From positions 1 through 20,648 of the IMG/VR virus record IMGVR_UViG_3300047678_000116: DNA of 20,648 nucleotides; one strand, 5' to 3'. The translations under genes and the position numbers were made by a program. Source of the DNA: a virus. The notes under the pieces are model-generated. The model ran no database searches. It saw only the letters and a list, made by a program, of their open reading frames with translations, and was not told the origin of the DNA. Below, piece by piece: positions 6,395 to 20,648 of the stretch (position 1 is its first letter; every line of letters begins with the position of its first letter).

Positions 6395-7069
6395 ATGATG
6401 ACCACACACTCAATCACGCATCCGCAGCTTGTCACCGCGCTGGTGAAGCCTGCACCCGATATCATTGCAACCCTGACGCCCTATGGCGTGGACCTGTGGC
6501 ACGGTGCAACCGGCGTGGCAGGCGAGACCGGCGAACTGCTGGAAGCAATCCTGTTCCCGCCCGCAACAGGCATCGACCGCGTCAACCTGCGCGAGGAGAT
6601 GGGTGACACCTATTTCTATATCGAACAGATCGTTCAGCGCGCCGGCATTACGATCGCCTATGACACTGCGGCGGAGATCGCTGACGGTGCGGACATGCGG
6701 GCCAAGCTGGCGCTCACCTACGCGGGTCAGTGCGCCGTCCACGGTTCGCAAGTGCTGGACACGGTCAAGAAGCAGGCCATCTACAACAAGCCGCTCGACG
6801 TGGAGCTGCTCACGAACCAGTTGAACGCGCTGGTCGCTTCAATGGCCACGCTGGGCAAGATGTTTCAGCTCGACCGGGCGGAATGCCTGTCCGCCAACAT
6901 CCACAAGCTGTCCAAGCGCTACCAGTCGCTGAGCTACAGCGATGCCGCTGCGCAGGCACGCGCGGACAAGCAGACCGGAACCGACGCGGTTATCCCCGCA
7001 CGCAAGCCCTTCAAGGGCGAGCCCACGGAAGACGACGTGAAGCGCGGTATGCTGGGCAAGGACGCATAA
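6395..7069 (+). CDS. mazG: MazG-like nucleoside triphosphate pyrophosphohydrolase
   Basis: A 224-residue all-alpha NTP-PPase-type protein. The metal-binding pattern ExxE...ExxD is clear: E44 and E47 in VAGETGELLEA, then E68 and D71 in REEMGDTYFYIE, with 20 residues between. The C-terminal half carries NIHKLSKRYQSLSY, typical of phage MazG-like proteins. These enzymes hydrolyse (d)NTPs to monophosphates and pyrophosphate; in phages they tune nucleotide pools or act on ppGpp. Given the modified-guanine genes at 17513-20648, removal of unmodified dGTP is an appealing role but not shown. Two ATGs are adjacent (6395 and 6398) behind CGGAG; the second has the better spacing. GC-rich third positions contrast with the preceding two genes. 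Confidence 0.85.
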   Translation: MMTTHSITHPQLVTALVKPAPDIIATLTPYGVDLWHGATGVAGETGELLEAILFPPATGIDRVNLREEMGDTYFYIEQIVQRAGITIAYDTAAEIADGADMRAKLALTYAGQCAVHGSQVLDTVKKQAIYNKPLDVELLTNQLNALVASMATLGKMFQLDRAECLSANIHKLSKRYQSLSYSDAAAQARADKQTGTDAVIPARKPFKGEPTEDDVKRGMLGKDA

Positions 7070-8056: not shown

Positions 8057-8634
8057 AACAGAAGCACCTCTATTCGCTGCTCGACCAGACCTATACGACG
8101 GTCAAGGTAGCGTTCACGGACCGCGTCCTGCCCGCTGGCACCTATGACAACGGCGCGGACCTGGGCGAATACGACCAAGGGGCTGGCGCACCGCGCACGA
8201 ACCTCGGCCAGATCAAGACCAAGGGCAAGACCCCTCCGTGGGGCGGCGACCGTGGACGCGGATACACCTACAAGGTTCCGAAGTCCTGGGACATCAAGGA
8301 AGGTGACACGCTCATCGTCCTGACCGAGCGCAACGGCCTGTCGTTCGTGCATGTGGTCAGCGTGGACGACATGCCCGACATCGACGTGGACGCCGACTTC
8401 CACTACCGCTGGGCGGTGCAGAAGGTCGACCTGACCGAGTTCCAGGAGCTCACGCTCAAGGAAGAGCAGTTCGGTCGCCAGATGATCGAGGTCGAGCGCG
8501 TCAAACAGCGCGAGTCGCTCCTGGACAGCTTCCGCAACTCGCTGCCCGAGGGCAGTGCGGCGCGCAACCTGTTCGAACAGACGACCGCGTCCCTCCAGGC
8601 GCCGCCCATCCCCTCCGAGGAGAAGGGCGCATGA
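8053..8634 (+). CDS. Conserved hypothetical phage protein with a small beta-barrel motif
   Basis: A 193-residue protein. Residues about 70-105 read GYTYKVPKSWDIKEGDTLIV and continue to FVHVVSVDD. The YxYKVP...GD.L/V pattern recurs in small phage beta-barrel proteins and resembles the N-terminal barrel of PriA-type proteins. A strand-rich stretch (IDVDADFHYRWAVQKVDL) and a charged C-terminal helix follow. Function is unknown; DNA binding is plausible from the barrel and the replication context. The start is supported by AAGGAG eight bases upstream and an ATGA overlap with RNase H. It overlaps thyX by four bases (ATGA), so the block 7134-9473 is translated as a coupled series. Confidence 0.75.
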   Translation: MKQKHLYSLLDQTYTTVKVAFTDRVLPAGTYDNGADLGEYDQGAGAPRTNLGQIKTKGKTPPWGGDRGRGYTYKVPKSWDIKEGDTLIVLTERNGLSFVHVVSVDDMPDIDVDADFHYRWAVQKVDLTEFQELTLKEEQFGRQMIEVERVKQRESLLDSFRNSLPEGSAARNLFEQTTASLQAPPIPSEEKGA

Positions 8635-9473
8635 CCACAATCTCCGCGCACAGCATCTTGCGGACGCGGAACAGCGCGCGTGGAGGGGCTCACGTCCTCT
8701 CCACGTTGCTGCTGACCTATCCGCGGTTTATCCATGCGGAGTTCATGACGCATCGCGTTATGTCCCGCAACGCTGCCAGCAGCCGCGCTATTCCGTTCGA
8801 GCGCCAGCTTGACGCAATGCTGGCGAACCCCGCTGTCCCCTTGCATTGGGGCGCGCACCAGAAGGGGATGCAGGCCAACCGGGAGCTTGAAGAGCCCGAG
8901 AGGCTCAAGGCAGAGATGACATGGCTGGACGCCATGAACGCTGCCGCTGCCCACGCTACCATGATGCACAGGCTGGGCGCGCACAAGCAGATCACGAACC
9001 GGATCATCGAACCCTTCACGCACATCAAGGTTCTGGTGTCAGCAACCGAATGGGACAACTTCCTGGAGCTGCGCGACCATCCGGCAGCGGAACCGCATAT
9101 GCAGCTTCTGGCGCAGGCAATCAAGCACGAGCTGGACCATGCACCTATCCAGACGCTGGACCCCGGCCACTGGCATCTGCCGTTCGTGGACTACAGCCCG
9201 GACGATGACGCTGACTTGCTCGACGGGCTGATCCCACTGTGCGTGGCGCGGTGTGCGTCGACCAGCTACAAGACGGTTGACAACTTCGACATGACAATGG
9301 AGAAGGCAACCGAGCTGCACGACCAGTTCGTCCACAGCCGGCCACAGCACGCCAGCCCGCTGGAGCACGCTGCACTTCTCGATGACGGTATGGAAATGCC
9401 GCTCTGGCAGTGGGCGCACCCGCACGAGCACGCCAACTTCGTTGGCTTCCGTCAATACCGGCATATGGTGTAA
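8631..9473 (+). CDS. thyX: Flavin-dependent thymidylate synthase
   Basis: A 280-residue ThyX. The family signature RHRxxSxNxxSxR appears as THRVMSRNAASSR at residues 40-52, with Thr in place of the first Arg, as in many phage enzymes. The C-terminal half keeps ARCASTSYKTV and the Leu/His-rich helices that build the flavin and dUMP sites, and ends HPHEHANFVGFRQYRHMV. ThyX makes dTMP from dUMP using methylene-tetrahydrofolate, NADPH and FAD, raising thymidine supply during phage DNA synthesis. It is somewhat longer than usual (about 220-250). The start overlaps the upstream stop (ATGA) and has GGAGAAGG. It leads directly into a small zinc-binding protein gene two bases after its stop. Confidence 0.93.
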   Translation: MTTISAHSILRTRNSARGGAHVLSTLLLTYPRFIHAEFMTHRVMSRNAASSRAIPFERQLDAMLANPAVPLHWGAHQKGMQANRELEEPERLKAEMTWLDAMNAAAAHATMMHRLGAHKQITNRIIEPFTHIKVLVSATEWDNFLELRDHPAAEPHMQLLAQAIKHELDHAPIQTLDPGHWHLPFVDYSPDDDADLLDGLIPLCVARCASTSYKTVDNFDMTMEKATELHDQFVHSRPQHASPLEHAALLDDGMEMPLWQWAHPHEHANFVGFRQYRHMV

Positions 9474-17512: not shown

Positions 17513-18235
17513 GTGATTAACAAACAACCAATCGAGAAGCGTGAACCCTCCTATGAGGGGACGCTCCAAGTCCATTCCATCTTTAAGACGATCCAAGGCG
17601 AGGGCCCGTTCTGTGGCACGCCTTGCGTTTTCGTGAGGTTGGCAGGATGCAACCTTCAGTGCCCCGCGTGCGACACTGACTACACATCGAACCGGCAGAT
17701 CATGCAGCCCGGTGAGATCCTGTTCCACGTCAACGAGCTTTGGCGTGCCGAACGCTACCGCCGAGGGCTTGTGGTCATCACGGGTGGCGAACCGTTCAGA
17801 CAGCACATCGGTGAGCTGATTGCCGTCCTGACGATGTCGAACTACTATGTGCAGATCGAATCGAACGGCACGATGAACCCGCCGGCCGGTCCGTGGCGGA
17901 CGGACACGTCCAAGCGTGAAGGTGCGTTCCTTGTCGTCAGCCCCAAGACCGGCAAGCTCAACCCGCTGGCGCTCGAGGAAGCGTGCGCGCTGAAGTATGT
18001 CGTGGCCGAGGGTGACATTCATACCGACGGGCTACCGCTGCACGCGCTGGACCATCCGTCGAATCCCTACCCGGCGCGTCCGCCGTTTGGCTGGGACCGC
18101 CCGGTCTATGTGCAACCGATGGATGCTAAGTCCACAGCTCAGAACCATCGCAACACCGCCGCAGCGGTGCAGTCGTGCCTGGACCACGGCTACATCCTCC
18201 AACTTCAGGTCCACAAATATATCGGAGTCGAATAA
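17513..18235 (+). CDS. queE: 7-carboxy-7-deazaguanine synthase QueE
   Basis: 240 residues from a GTG start behind CGGAGG. A radical SAM enzyme that converts 6-carboxy-tetrahydropterin to 7-carboxy-7-deazaguanine, the third step of preQ0 synthesis. Visible features are QGEGPFCGTP at 28-37, the CX3CX2C cluster C46, C50, C53 in LAGCNLQCPACDTDYT, and GGEPF at 91-95, which helps bind SAM. Length is normal for QueE. The following queC overlaps its TAA (TAATG). In bacteria this pathway serves tRNA queuosine; in phages with queC, queD, queE and folE together it usually serves DNA modification, a role inferred here. Confidence 0.93.
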   Translation: MINKQPIEKREPSYEGTLQVHSIFKTIQGEGPFCGTPCVFVRLAGCNLQCPACDTDYTSNRQIMQPGEILFHVNELWRAERYRRGLVVITGGEPFRQHIGELIAVLTMSNYYVQIESNGTMNPPAGPWRTDTSKREGAFLVVSPKTGKLNPLALEEACALKYVVAEGDIHTDGLPLHALDHPSNPYPARPPFGWDRPVYVQPMDAKSTAQNHRNTAAAVQSCLDHGYILQLQVHKYIGVE

Positions 18236-18999
18236 TGGATAAAGCACTTGTCGTTCTGTCCGGCGGGCAGGACTCGGTCACCTGTCTGTTCTGGGCGATG
18301 AAGGAATTCAGCGAGGTCCATGCGATCACGTTCGATTACAACCAGCGCCACCGCATCGAAATTGATGCTGCAATCAAGACCGCTGAGATGGCGGGGGTTG
18401 CGTCCCATGAAGTCGTCGTGCTGGGCCCCGTGCTCGCTGGCAAGTCCCCTCTCACCAATCCCGACGAGCAGCTCGAGAAATACGAGTCGCACGAGCAGAT
18501 GGAAGCGGTGATCGGCGACCGTCGCGAACTGACGTTCGTTCCGATGCGCAATGCGCTGTTCCTCACCATTGCTGCCAACCGTGCGGAAGTGCTGGGCTGC
18601 AACGTGATCGTCACCGGCGTCTGCCAGATGGACAACGCCAACTATGATGACTGCCGCGAGGTGTTTATCGACAGCATGAACGACATGATCGAACATGCGC
18701 TCGGGTATGACCACAGGGGTGATCTGGACGCCGGCATCAGCATTGCGGCACCGCTGATGGACCTCACGAAGGCAGACACGGTGCGCCTGGCGCAGGAGCT
18801 TCCGGGCTGCTGGGAAGCGCTTGCCTACAGCCACACGTCCTACGATGGGACGTATCCGCCGACCGACAACAATCACTCCAACGTCCTGCGAGCGCAAGGG
18901 TTTCTGGATGCAGGGTTCCCCGACCCGCTGGTCCTGCGCGCTTACGACGAGGGTCTGATGGCGCTGCCGGATACCCCGAACTACGACGCCCATCGCTGA
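18235..18999 (+). CDS. queC: 7-cyano-7-deazaguanine (preQ0) synthase QueC, zinc cysteines absent
   Basis: 254 residues from the ATG that overlaps the queE stop; CGGAG lies eight bases ahead. QueC makes preQ0 from 7-carboxy-7-deazaguanine, ammonia and ATP. The PP-loop SGGQDS is at 9-14, followed by AITFDYNQRHRIE and FVPMRNALFLTIAANRAE, both typical. Ordinary QueC ends with a Cys...CxxCxxC zinc site before LRxxGF; here the matching stretch is SHTSYDGTYPPTDNNHSNVL, so the four positions are S202, T210, N213 and N216. The flanking SHT.Y.G and LRAQGFLDAGFPDP remain. This may be a phage lineage that folds without zinc or a divergent activity. It overlaps the next gene (TGATG). Confidence 0.9.
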   Translation: MDKALVVLSGGQDSVTCLFWAMKEFSEVHAITFDYNQRHRIEIDAAIKTAEMAGVASHEVVVLGPVLAGKSPLTNPDEQLEKYESHEQMEAVIGDRRELTFVPMRNALFLTIAANRAEVLGCNVIVTGVCQMDNANYDDCREVFIDSMNDMIEHALGYDHRGDLDAGISIAAPLMDLTKADTVRLAQELPGCWEALAYSHTSYDGTYPPTDNNHSNVLRAQGFLDAGFPDPLVLRAYDEGLMALPDTPNYDAHR

Positions 19000-19412
19000 T
19001 GGACATCGTTAGCCATGCGGTGGCGGGTGCAGCGGTTGGCGCTGCATTCGGCCATCCCATCCTTGGCGTCGTCTTTGGAGTGCTGCCCGATCTGGTGCTG
19101 CTAACCCCCAAGCGCTTGACCCTGCCCCCAGCGCGCTACAGCGCCACGCACAGCGCGTTGTTCGTTGCGGGGGCAGGGTTGCTAGGGTGGCTGGCGTTCG
19201 CCACTGTGGTGCCGCTGCTGGCGGTGCTGTCGCACATCCTGTTGGATCTCCCAACGCACGGGCGCCGCTGGGGCCCGCAACTCCTTTACCCGTTCAGCCA
19301 CCGCGTGTATAGCTACGGAACTGAATGGGAATGGTTCAATCGATCCTGGTGGCAGGGTCTCGCTCTAACCCTCTTGTGGAGTCTCGCATGGCTGTTCGTC
19401 ACACTCAAGTAA
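18999..19412 (+). CDS. YdjM-like membrane-bound putative metal-dependent hydrolase
   Basis: 137 residues with three to four membrane helices (about 7-33, 52-85, 119-135). His/Asp residues sit where YdjM-type (PF04307-like) hydrolases have them: H6 near the N-terminus, D31 in VLPDL, H51, then SHILLDLPTHG with H79, D83 and H87, and LYPFSHRVYSYG. Family members are inner-membrane proteins with a possible zinc-dependent hydrolase site; their substrates are mostly unknown. The start overlaps the queC stop (TGATG) and the end overlaps the next gene by 25 bp, so it is fully embedded in the preQ0 operon. Whether it takes part in base metabolism, lysis or host-envelope change is unknown. Confidence 0.75.
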   Translation: MDIVSHAVAGAAVGAAFGHPILGVVFGVLPDLVLLTPKRLTLPPARYSATHSALFVAGAGLLGWLAFATVVPLLAVLSHILLDLPTHGRRWGPQLLYPFSHRVYSYGTEWEWFNRSWWQGLALTLLWSLAWLFVTLK

Positions 19413-19684
19413 GGCACTGGCTGCCTATCATCACCTTCTGCCCGGTGAACCATCTTCCCGACCTCATTTACGTCGAGGTGGCGTTCCGCGACGACACGCT
19501 GGACGATAGGGCGCCGGTCCATGAGCTCTACGGGATCCGCAAGCGCATTCGCAAGGTTGCGCAGTTCAAGAAGAAGTTCATGGAAGACATCGCTGCGGAC
19601 CTGTTCCGTGAATTCAATACCTGCGACTATGTCACGGTGACGCTTGCGTTCGGCCGGCATGTGGTCACGCACTCGGAGGACTGA
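19388..19684 (+). CDS. Small QueF-like T-fold protein (98 aa)
   Basis: 98 residues from the ATG at 19388, with GGAG upstream. FCPVNHLPDLIYVEVAF aligns with the QueF active-site region CPVTxQPD: C18 and D25 are spaced seven apart, as are the nucleophile Cys and catalytic Asp of QueF. FMEDIAADLFREF corresponds to the QueF FHExxxNxIxxDL helix, with Glu kept and His replaced by Met. The NADPH motif ExKSxK is replaced by ELYGIRKRIRK. Size and motif loss recall archaeal QueF-like amidinotransferases, which turn the preQ0 nitrile into an amidine. A role in making a deoxy-archaeosine-type or reduced base is therefore possible but inferred. It overlaps the membrane gene and is followed by queD after one base. 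Confidence 0.7.
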   Translation: MAVRHTQVRHWLPIITFCPVNHLPDLIYVEVAFRDDTLDDRAPVHELYGIRKRIRKVAQFKKKFMEDIAADLFREFNTCDYVTVTLAFGRHVVTHSED

Positions 19685-19685
19685 A

Positions 19686-20147
19686 ATGCACCGCGTCACC
19701 AAAACCTACGGTCATGAACTTGGCCTGTCCGCAACCTTCCGCCAACCTCAGGCAACCAGCCATTGCCGCTTCATCCACGGCTATGCGCTGGGCTTCAAGA
19801 TCGTGTTTGAATCTGACACGCTTGACGGCAACGGATGGGTGAAAGACTTCGGTTCGCTCAAGGCGCTCAAGCAACGCTTGTGCGACACCTTCGACCACAA
19901 GCTGCTCCTGGCGCAGGACGATCCCTACCTCCAGCATCTCCAGGAAGCGCTGAGCTTCAATGGTGCGCCACTGCTGGCTGACATCGTTGTCGTGCCGAAG
20001 GTCGGGTGCGAGTCGTTCGCTGAGATGGTGTATGGCTGGGCGGTCGAGACCATCACCCCGCCGGAATACCAGCGAGGCGTCCGCGTCACTGAAGTTGAAT
20101 GCAGGGAGCACGCGGGGAACGCGGCCTCTTACTTGGGGAACTACTGA
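19686..20147 (+). CDS. queD: QueD-like 6-carboxy-tetrahydropterin synthase with altered zinc site
   Basis: 153 residues with CGGAGG before the start. The 6-pyruvoyl-tetrahydropterin-synthase T-fold is recognisable: SHCRFIHGYALGFKIVFE, WVKDFGSLKALK, TFDHKLLL and the late VECREH. C27 sits at the catalytic Cys position and FDHK supplies the catalytic Asp-His pair. The usual zinc triad differs: the first His of the F.AAH motif is Phe18, and HGH is H31-G-Y33. Similar sequences are annotated as QueD in other phages as far as I recall. It would make 6-carboxy-tetrahydropterin for QueE. A reassigned metal site (H10, H26 or H31) or other substrate is possible. The stop overlaps the next ATG (TGATG). 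Confidence 0.8.
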   Translation: MHRVTKTYGHELGLSATFRQPQATSHCRFIHGYALGFKIVFESDTLDGNGWVKDFGSLKALKQRLCDTFDHKLLLAQDDPYLQHLQEALSFNGAPLLADIVVVPKVGCESFAEMVYGWAVETITPPEYQRGVRVTEVECREHAGNAASYLGNY

Positions 20148-20648
20148 TGGCTGAACAGGTTTACGATACGCTCGGGGTCCTGGACCTCGCTGGTGACATG
20201 CAGAACCGCATCCTCACCAAGTTCGACCGGGGGCACCGCCCGATCAAGGTTTATGCGGTTCCGACCGCCGGCATTGCAGCGCGCTTGGCGCTGTTCGCGC
20301 TGGACGATGTGCAAGCGTTCGTCGTTGAGGACGACTGGACCAAGGCGGACGTCATTGTTGACGACCTGATCGACACCGGCAAGACGATGGAACGCTTCGG
20401 CGACCATTACTTCGAGGCGCTTATCGACAAGCGTAGCTGGGAGCACGGTGACGCCTGGGTCGTGTGGCCTTGGGAGGGGAACGGAAGTGCAGGGATCGAA
20501 GATCACATTGTTCGACTTCTTCAGTATGTCGGGGAAGACCCTTCGCGTGGCGGACTGGCAGAAACGCCCGCTCGCGTTGCTAAGGCGTGGAAGGAATGGT
20601 GCGCGGGTTACGACATGGACCCGAAGGACATCCTGAAGACGTTCGAGG
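20147..20648 (+). CDS. folE: Phosphoribosyltransferase-GTP cyclohydrolase I fusion, cut by window end
   Basis: The frame is open from the ATG at 20147 (TGATG overlap) to the last base, 167 residues so far. Residues 1-110 form a compact type I phosphoribosyltransferase: VYAVPTAGIAARLAL, the PRPP loop VIVDDLIDTGKTM at 69-81, and WVVWPWE at 104-110, a common end of such domains. Residues about 115-167 start a FolE domain (GIEDHIVRLLQYVGEDPSRG, then TPARVAKAWKEWCAGYD). FolE makes dihydroneopterin triphosphate from GTP, the first step of preQ0 synthesis. The catalytic Cys/His zinc residues of FolE lie beyond the window. The joined PRTase might recycle guanine to GMP or add PRPP to a 7-deazaguanine base; neither is shown. 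Confidence 0.85.
   Translation, partial: MAEQVYDTLGVLDLAGDMQNRILTKFDRGHRPIKVYAVPTAGIAARLALFALDDVQAFVVEDDWTKADVIVDDLIDTGKTMERFGDHYFEALIDKRSWEHGDAWVVWPWEGNGSAGIEDHIVRLLQYVGEDPSRGGLAETPARVAKAWKEWCAGYDMDPKDILKTFE

Follow-up and report, generated by a model that had tools for sequence, protein, structure and literature searches.

The window analysed here is the entire viral record IMGVR_UViG_3300047678_000116 (G000; 20,648 bases), and it ends inside a gene that joins a phosphoribosyltransferase (PRT) domain to FolE (GTP cyclohydrolase I). Positions 20147-20648 of the plus strand form a stop-free frame of 167 residues, the start codon of which overlaps with the stop codon of the preceding gene QueD (TGATG, 20145-20149). 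An alternative in-frame ATG is located upstream at 20099; the relatives align with the start at 20147. In syntenic relatives (Sphingomonas phage vB_StuS_MMDA13 and the loci L003 and L004) the complete fusion comprises about 295 amino acids and is directly followed by DpdA, and the window breaks off before the place where DpdA is expected. The fusion is real: the original prediction of a loop for binding of phosphoribosyl pyrophosphate (PRPP) and of FolE within a single open frame is borne out by the translation, by the Pfam match of the FolE part and by profile and fold matches of the PRT part.

With Pfam the FolE part is recognised as a member of its family (GTP_cyclohydroI on fusion residues 117-164, 39.4 bits at a cut-off of 27, E 5.5e-10). 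The family Pribosyltran covers residues 69-87 only and stays below its threshold (19.2 bits, cut-off 26.3, E 8.1e-4). From Pfam alone the PRT identity would be a weak claim, and it is made firm by a sequence profile of 14 PRT domains, the best solved relative of which is xanthine-guanine phosphoribosyltransferase (XGPRT; 6kqc, E 2.5e-13), followed by a purine PRT of Pyrococcus and by GpT enzymes of Sulfolobus. A phmmer search with the single PRT domain against the PDB sequences gave no match, whereas the profile search did. The AlphaFold model of the window's own PRT domain reaches a predicted local distance difference test score (pLDDT) of 90.1, and that of the full fusion from L023 reaches 94.4. 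Foldseek returned 25 matches below 1e-3, all of them XGPRT or purine PRTs from Sulfolobus (one Sulfolobus entry bears the title adenine PRT), with E 4.3e-5 for the XGPRT match of the window domain. In VIA-align XGPRT is listed first (Z 10.8, root-mean-square deviation 4.5, 112 aligned residues), then come other purine PRTs and, from Z 8.9 down, PyrR. The modelled domain thus has the PRT type I fold, and profile and model together identify it as a compact relative of XGPRT.

Among 49 fusions the residues P38, G41, D71, D72, I74, D75, G77, K94, W103, P107, W108 and E109 are invariant (numbering of L023, i.e. the window numbers minus one). The pattern used in the PRT search already contained DD..D.G, so these positions are conserved partly by construction, and the K, W, P, W and E lie outside of it. 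In the 47 rows of alignment A5 the PRPP-loop aspartates D72, D73 and D76, all present in the window, are invariant (again partly by construction), as are the base-site residues K95 and W104, which the pattern did not include. According to the profile alignment the invariant lysine and the W..P-W-E motif correspond to K115 and W134..P-W-D140 of XGPRT, which we take to have a role in holding the base. In the FolE part of the 49 fusions C187, H189, H190, H256 and C258 are invariant; these sites lie past the end of the window and were read in the relatives, and the zinc site is presumably formed by the Cys, His and Cys positions. Residues D76-T80 of the window are the counterpart of the loop D137-T141 in human hypoxanthine-guanine phosphoribosyltransferase (HGPRT), in which D137 is described as lying within 2.8 Å of the purine N7 (PMC11089518).

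Searched with the window part of the fusion, the phage collection gave 65 records, 30 of which match across at least 80% of its length. When the PRT part alone is used, 39 phage records appear at E ≤ 1: in 33 the match extends into FolE and six are stand-alone PRT genes (E 0.3-0.7). Where a phage has both a GenBank and a RefSeq record, the two are tallied separately here. Nine of the 33 records were fetched, and in each of the nine PRT and FolE are found in one open reading frame (ORF). From the viral contigs the best 80 of 246 relatives were taken, ranked by their likeness to the fused PRT (PRT-profile set); in 78 of these loci a single ORF holds both PRT and FolE, whereas in two (L079, L099) they occupy adjacent separate ORFs. 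A PRT of the fused kind is therefore seldom found apart from FolE, and a set ranked in this way gives no share of fused FolE. A second set was obtained with a profile headed by unfused FolE (FolE set; best 80 of at least 590 viral relatives) and contains 29 fused and 51 unfused loci. Among genome contigs (best 80 of at least 565 relatives) 78 match only from fusion residue 89 on, and two match the PRT part. The assumption that FolE normally stands alone is thus correct for cells as far as this PRT is concerned, and in the viral FolE set 29 of the 80 loci depart from it.

With the PRT part matched in only two of these genome-contig loci, a cellular origin of the fusion was discarded. One of the two, L111, carries a complete phage-type cluster including DpdA. 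The other (L142 5926-6846), from a contig binned into a bacterial metagenome-assembled genome of Thermoguttaceae, has the fusion together with QueD and QueE; DpdA was not found in the 9.4 kb fetched, and the neighbours, judged by eye, look phage-like. By parsimony 17 changes are reconstructed, of which only three are forced by well-supported branches, and with long-branch warnings given no count of fusion origins is claimed. In Providencia phage PSTCR7 (L017 2545-3000) FolE is preceded by some 150 further N-terminal residues, which are unlike the PRT of the window; only the FolE part of this protein reaches a Pfam cut-off.

The PRT part is under purifying selection. The ratio of nonsynonymous to synonymous substitution rates (dN/dS) is 0.146 between the window and L023 (109 PRT codons) and ranges from 0.022 to 0.278 across 36 listed comparisons (one pair is listed twice). 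This selection and the single frame in 78 of 80 contigs make it hardly credible that the fusion is an artefact of a frameshift, of an assembly join or of a wrongly chosen start, and the frameshift between the domains that the original prediction had kept in mind was not seen. The one annotation pointing in that direction is that of phage PaMx25, where two overlapping genes are given, namely a hypothetical protein in another frame and a short FolE; its DNA (L013 2877-3807, JQ067084.3) also has one ORF that holds both domains.

The presence of DpdA was determined with an alignment of phage DpdA sequences (A3). Pfam TGT (PF01702) had been rejected for this purpose, as it matched only one of 28 records though several of the 28 hold an annotated DpdA. 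In the PRT-profile set DpdA occurs in 69 of 80 loci and five more were detected on the whole records, i.e. on 74 of 80. Six records are negative: five are only 4.2-13.5 kb long, and L099 (56 kb) gave no match to the DpdA alignment and a match to tRNA-guanine transglycosylase (E 4.6e-6). In the FolE set all 29 fused loci have DpdA. All 80 PRT-profile loci contain FolE and at least one of QueC, QueD, QueE and DpdA on the fetched stretch. Their genes occur in 18 arrangements, some of them incomplete forms of others, and the six-part arrangements in five orders; the link of the PRT to this cluster thus outlives rearrangement, which a set ranked by similarity favours.

This constancy speaks against a host-derived gpt gene that was captured beside FolE for general purine or xanthine salvage, unconnected to DpdA, even if the ranking of the set contributes to it. 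XGPRT-like enzymes are common in bacteria, and record MT835497 contains an XGPRT-like PRT on which basis such salvage can be argued: neither FolE nor QueC was found there, a search for DpdA on this record gave no match either, and its PRT probably serves ordinary salvage. For the fused form we regard this explanation as quite improbable. Among the PRT-containing loci, counted by distinct FolE (90), QueC is plain in 52 and, as in NP1, extended at its N-terminus in 19; in another 19 no QueC was found in the fetched stretch. (The N-terminal MCG motif, looked for as a sign of an amidotransferase, is present in one locus only, so that no more than an N-terminal extension is claimed.) The PRT occurs with varied forms of QueC and is therefore not tied to one end product, as would be expected if its substrate were a by-product common to all of them.

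Such a by-product would be guanine. The role ascribed to DpdA is the exchange of guanine in DNA for a 7-deazaguanine (PMC6884629), so one free guanine is expected per modified base. We propose, with a probability of about one half, that the PRT domain converts the guanine that DpdA sets free into GMP again. The fusion would then be a two-domain enzyme of the phage 7-deazaguanine DNA-modification pathway: the PRT would join free guanine to PRPP, and kinases would convert the resulting GMP to GTP, on which the attached FolE acts. Two benefits could follow: guanine would be cleared without build-up and without competition with the modified base at DpdA, and purine would flow back into a pathway that uses up one GTP per modified base. 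Guanine is poorly soluble, and for an assumed phage of 63.6 kb and 63% GC, if 25% of its G is exchanged and 100 progeny are formed, the load is estimated at about 1e6 guanines per cell or 1.7 mM in 1 fL. The matches to purine PRTs, the invariant base site, purifying selection, the co-occurrence with DpdA, the variety of QueC, the stand-alone PRTs beside FolE and the contrast in nucleoside deoxyribosyltransferase (NDT)-like genes (see below for the last two) all point to recycling of guanine. Guanine salvage to feed GTP had been offered in the original prediction; salvage fits, and a general supply of GTP, we infer, fits less well than recycling of the DpdA by-product.

The second route offered there was pre-replicative: the PRT (the fused one or its stand-alone cousins) would join a 7-deazaguanine base, i.e. 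preQ0, preQ1 or 7-carboxy-7-deazaguanine, to PRPP and so lead, by way of kinases and ribonucleotide reductase, to a modified dGTP for the polymerase, besides or instead of the exchange by DpdA. The location of the PRT in a cluster that makes such bases agrees with it, and a route via modified dGTP has been proposed for Campylobacter phages (PMC6884629). For the fused form a bypass of DpdA is unsupported, with DpdA on 74 of 80 records and in all 29 fused loci of the FolE set. Furthermore, the PRPP-loop aspartate that matches D137 of HGPRT would approach N7 of a purine (PMC11089518), where 7-deazaguanines carry a substituted carbon.

The stand-alone PRTs of phages bear on this route as well. A PRT of the same kind is found beside FolE in Flavobacterium phage immuto, with DpdA nearby, and in two Brevundimonas phages; others occur in Cellulophaga phage phiST, in Campylobacter phages CP220 and F379 and, next to QueE, in Pseudomonas phage MIJ3. 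Among eight records with a stand-alone PRT that were searched, FolE is present on seven and QueC on five. In MIJ3 neither DpdA nor QueC was found when sought on the record of 288 kb, which would suit a nucleotide route, as would the Brevundimonas phages, which encode a ribonucleotide reductase and a dNMP kinase themselves and in which DpdA is doubtful. On the other hand the PRT of MIJ3 lacks the W..PWE motif, and the seemingly DpdA-less phages dwindle on closer search. DpdA is clear in immuto, CP220 and F379, the latter two carrying a member of phrog_19058, to which the annotated DpdA of immuto belongs. For phiST it is likely, as judged from phrog_20335, a family tied to DpdA via the phages Youna2 and BSP7. 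In the Brevundimonas pair an assignment can be made only tentatively from sequence comparison: with hhalign StAshley_00090 alone matches DpdA with a probability of 6.8%, and together with two relatives with 63.6% (E 6.8e-5). Both relatives match the DpdA family of immuto. Relatives of StAshley_00090 were found in phage records, and none in the scan of viral contigs. On account of this weak alignment with DpdA the Brevundimonas phages were dropped as firm DpdA-less support for a nucleotide route, and altogether such a route appears rather improbable.

Some of these genes deserve mention in their own right. The hypothetical proteins of StAshley (L102 6975-7772), Youna2 (L271 3932-4699) and BSP7 (L272 3821-4606) adjoin DNA polymerase in preQ0 clusters and look, by their similarity to phrog_20335 and phrog_19058, like a very divergent DpdA family. 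The XGPRT-like gene of MIJ3 that lies beside QueE is located at L110 5995-6429. In the Campylobacter phages CP220 and F379 (L108 8992-9405 and L105 8992-9405) the PRT has the sequence DDINDTSKT, with Ser replacing the Gly of the PRPP loop.

Several observations weigh against the idea that the fused PRT recycles guanine. In the sequence comparison XGPRT has an insert of 22 residues relative to the phage profile, positioned just before the PRPP loop. In HPRTs the active site is described as being covered by a mobile loop, loop II (PMC6783271), and we take the segment absent from the phage PRT to be this mobile catalytic loop; in correctly parsed rows 21-33 residues separate the pyrophosphate loop from the PRPP loop. 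The segment is kept in some stand-alone phage PRTs (StAshley, phiST and two fecal contigs) and mostly missing in those of immuto, CP220, F379 and MIJ3. The pyrophosphate loop reads T-A-G in the window and in L023, and T-G-G in L022. The motif R-G-G is found in 60 of 78 rows, some of the remaining ones being mis-parsed, and R40 and G41, which are at least 90% conserved in the 47 rows of A5, are replaced by T and A in the window. The window copy may thus be weaker than its relatives, and the conservation of PRTase active-site residues assumed in the original prediction extends to the base site of the 49 fusions and leaves out the pyrophosphate loop of the window. The PRT part is also less constrained than FolE, its dN/dS being the higher one in 32 of the 34 listed comparisons that give both. 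In the FolE set DpdA is present in 49 of the 51 unfused loci, which makes the PRT domain dispensable: the PRT accompanies DpdA, yet many loci have DpdA and no PRT. PRTs of the host could also take on this task. Finally, two kinase steps lie between GMP and GTP, so the fusion offers no direct channel, nor does it account for these two steps.

The same deviations form the basis of the main competing explanation, in which the domain is a non-catalytic ligand sensor that binds guanine, GMP, GTP, ppGpp or PRPP and adjusts FolE, comparable to the PRT fold in the regulator PyrR. The missing loop II, the pyrophosphate-loop Arg lost in the clade of the window and the attachment to the first enzyme of the pathway would be in accordance with it. 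So would the fold list, in which PyrR structures follow the purine PRTs and the ppGpp-bound PRT-fold protein 5vog reaches Z 9.7. However, the base site with its invariant Lys and Trp and the PRPP loop with its invariant acidic residues (the latter partly by construction) are conserved more strictly than sensing alone requires, and a sensor does not account for stand-alone PRTs beside FolE, nor for an unrelated NDT-like gene between QueD and FolE in Aminobacter phage Erebus and in three near-identical contigs. We consider a sensor unlikely.

These NDT-like genes occur in six of 51 PRT-less loci and in none of 109 PRT-containing loci, some contigs being included twice among the latter; counting distinct FolE the figures are six of 47 and none of 88 (Fisher p 0.0014). 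For the PRT-containing loci the search relied on a single model, built up from the Erebus gene, and a Pfam scan of the PRT-less neighbours covered 65 of the 100 ORFs listed. NDT and PRT both act on a free base and a sugar, in agreement with a need shared by the two kinds of cluster; the NDT family also includes nucleotide-cleaving members. The distribution of the genes reduces the weight of this contrast. Of the genes in the six loci, three occupy the QueD-FolE gap, two are located past DpdA, and the remaining one separates FolE from DpdA. The three loci with the gene in the QueD-FolE gap are near copies (FolE 86-92% identical), so about four independent cases remain, plus Erebus, and the contrast rests on few lineages.

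The features of the window and the NDT-like genes are collected in the table. FolE (incomplete), QueD, QueE and QueC are all present on the window record; no match to DpdA was obtained in the window, which stops before the expected place of DpdA. The small ORF upstream of QueD has no match in Pfam or PHROG, and its positional equivalent gp33 in MMDA13 is labelled QueF-like by its authors (PMC7472734). Between QueC and this QueF-like ORF a gene for a YdjM-like protein is located (18999-19412), the equivalent of which in MMDA13 is the hypothetical protein gp34. Further genes of the nucleotide pool in the window encode a ThyX-like thymidylate synthase (8631-9473) and a MazG-like pyrophosphatase (6395-7069).

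Table. Location of the features discussed, given as window positions unless a locus is named.
Feature	Position	Strand	Remarks
Fused PRT-FolE gene	20147..20648	+	incomplete, as the record stops here; complete in MMDA13 and L004
Compact XGPRT-like phosphoribosyltransferase domain, residues 1-110	20147..20476	+	profile, AlphaFold, Foldseek, VIA-align
Pyrophosphate-loop position, residues 38-42, V-P-T-A-G	20258..20272	+	most relatives: V-P-R-G-G
PRPP-binding loop VIVDDLIDTGKTM, residues 69-81	20351..20389	+	D72, D73, D76 and G78 invariant in A5
Lys95, aligned to XGPRT Lys115	20429..20431	+	invariant in alignments A1, A4 and A5
Base-site motif W-V-V-W-P-W-E, residues 104-110	20456..20476	+	aligned to XGPRT W134-I-E-Q-P-W-D140; W104, P108, W109 and E110 invariant
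FolE (GTP cyclohydrolase I), N-terminal part, incomplete	20495..20648	+	PF01227 E 5.5e-10; phrog_2197 E 2.4e-11
QueD	19686..20147	+	phrog_2389 E 2.6e-39; stop overlaps start of the fusion
Small ORF at the position of MMDA13 gp33	19325..19684	+	synteny; start unsure
YdjM-like inner-membrane protein	18999..19412	+	PF04307 E 2.3e-10
QueC, without amidotransferase extension	18238..18999	+	phrog_1550 E 3.4e-58
QueE radical SAM enzyme	17513..18235	+	phrog_2076 E 5.3e-54
NDT-like genes in the QueD-FolE gap	L018 3558-3944; L235 4541-4975; L237 4508-4912; L240 4488-4910		PRT-less clusters
NDT-like genes in further clusters	L234; L254; L270		PRT-less clusters

The 7-deazaguanine pathway, FolE, DpdA and XGPRT are already known. 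For the PRT-FolE fusion no description was found in the open-access literature, though an earlier one is possible, and 'phosphoribosyl' is absent from a 2019 survey. In annotation the link has been made, as the record of F379 labels a gene of this Campylobacter phage 'purine phosphoribosyltransferase / queuosine biosynthesis protein'. Work on 7-deazaguanines in phages has traced the source of the new base; on the fate of the guanine expelled by DpdA one search of the open-access literature yielded nothing. The recurrent PRT-FolE fusion and the NDT-like genes in some PRT-less clusters suggest that handling of the by-product belongs to the system, and many phage proteins annotated simply as GTP cyclohydrolase consist of two domains.

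Among the closest known systems is MMDA13, the gp31 of which is a complete fusion with 73.7% identity across the window part in the same gene order and, unlike the window, retains V-P-R-G-G in the pyrophosphate loop. In the available text of the MMDA13 paper gp31 is named FolE only and the term 'phosphoribosyltransferase' does not occur (count 0; PMC7472734). With the FolE of other phages having a preQ0 cluster, such as phage 9g, for which function has been reported (PMC6884629), the fusion has in common the FolE with its invariant Cys and His residues, which adjoins QueD and DpdA in most relatives. It differs from plain phage FolE by the additional N-terminal PRT, which 51 of the 80 loci of the FolE set are without. 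The stand-alone phage PRTs of phrog_8995 (immuto, StAshley, phiST, CP220, MIJ3) are likewise XGPRT-like and occur in FolE-bearing phages, in immuto and StAshley directly beside FolE, but they are unfused and some keep the longer loop segment. PyrR shares the PRT fold only, its sequence matches being weak and restricted to ancestral PyrR (E 0.24-0.53), and no role in RNA binding is implied. With XGPRT of Escherichia coli and Yersinia (Gpt; 1a95, 4jls, 6kqc) the phage domain shares the fold, the order of motifs, the PRPP loop DDxxD[TS]GxT and the counterparts of Lys115 and W134..PWD140. In contrast with XGPRT it comprises only about 110 instead of 152 residues, is without the 22-residue segment of the putative mobile loop and, in the window copy, without the Arg-Gly of the pyrophosphate loop, and it is fused to FolE.

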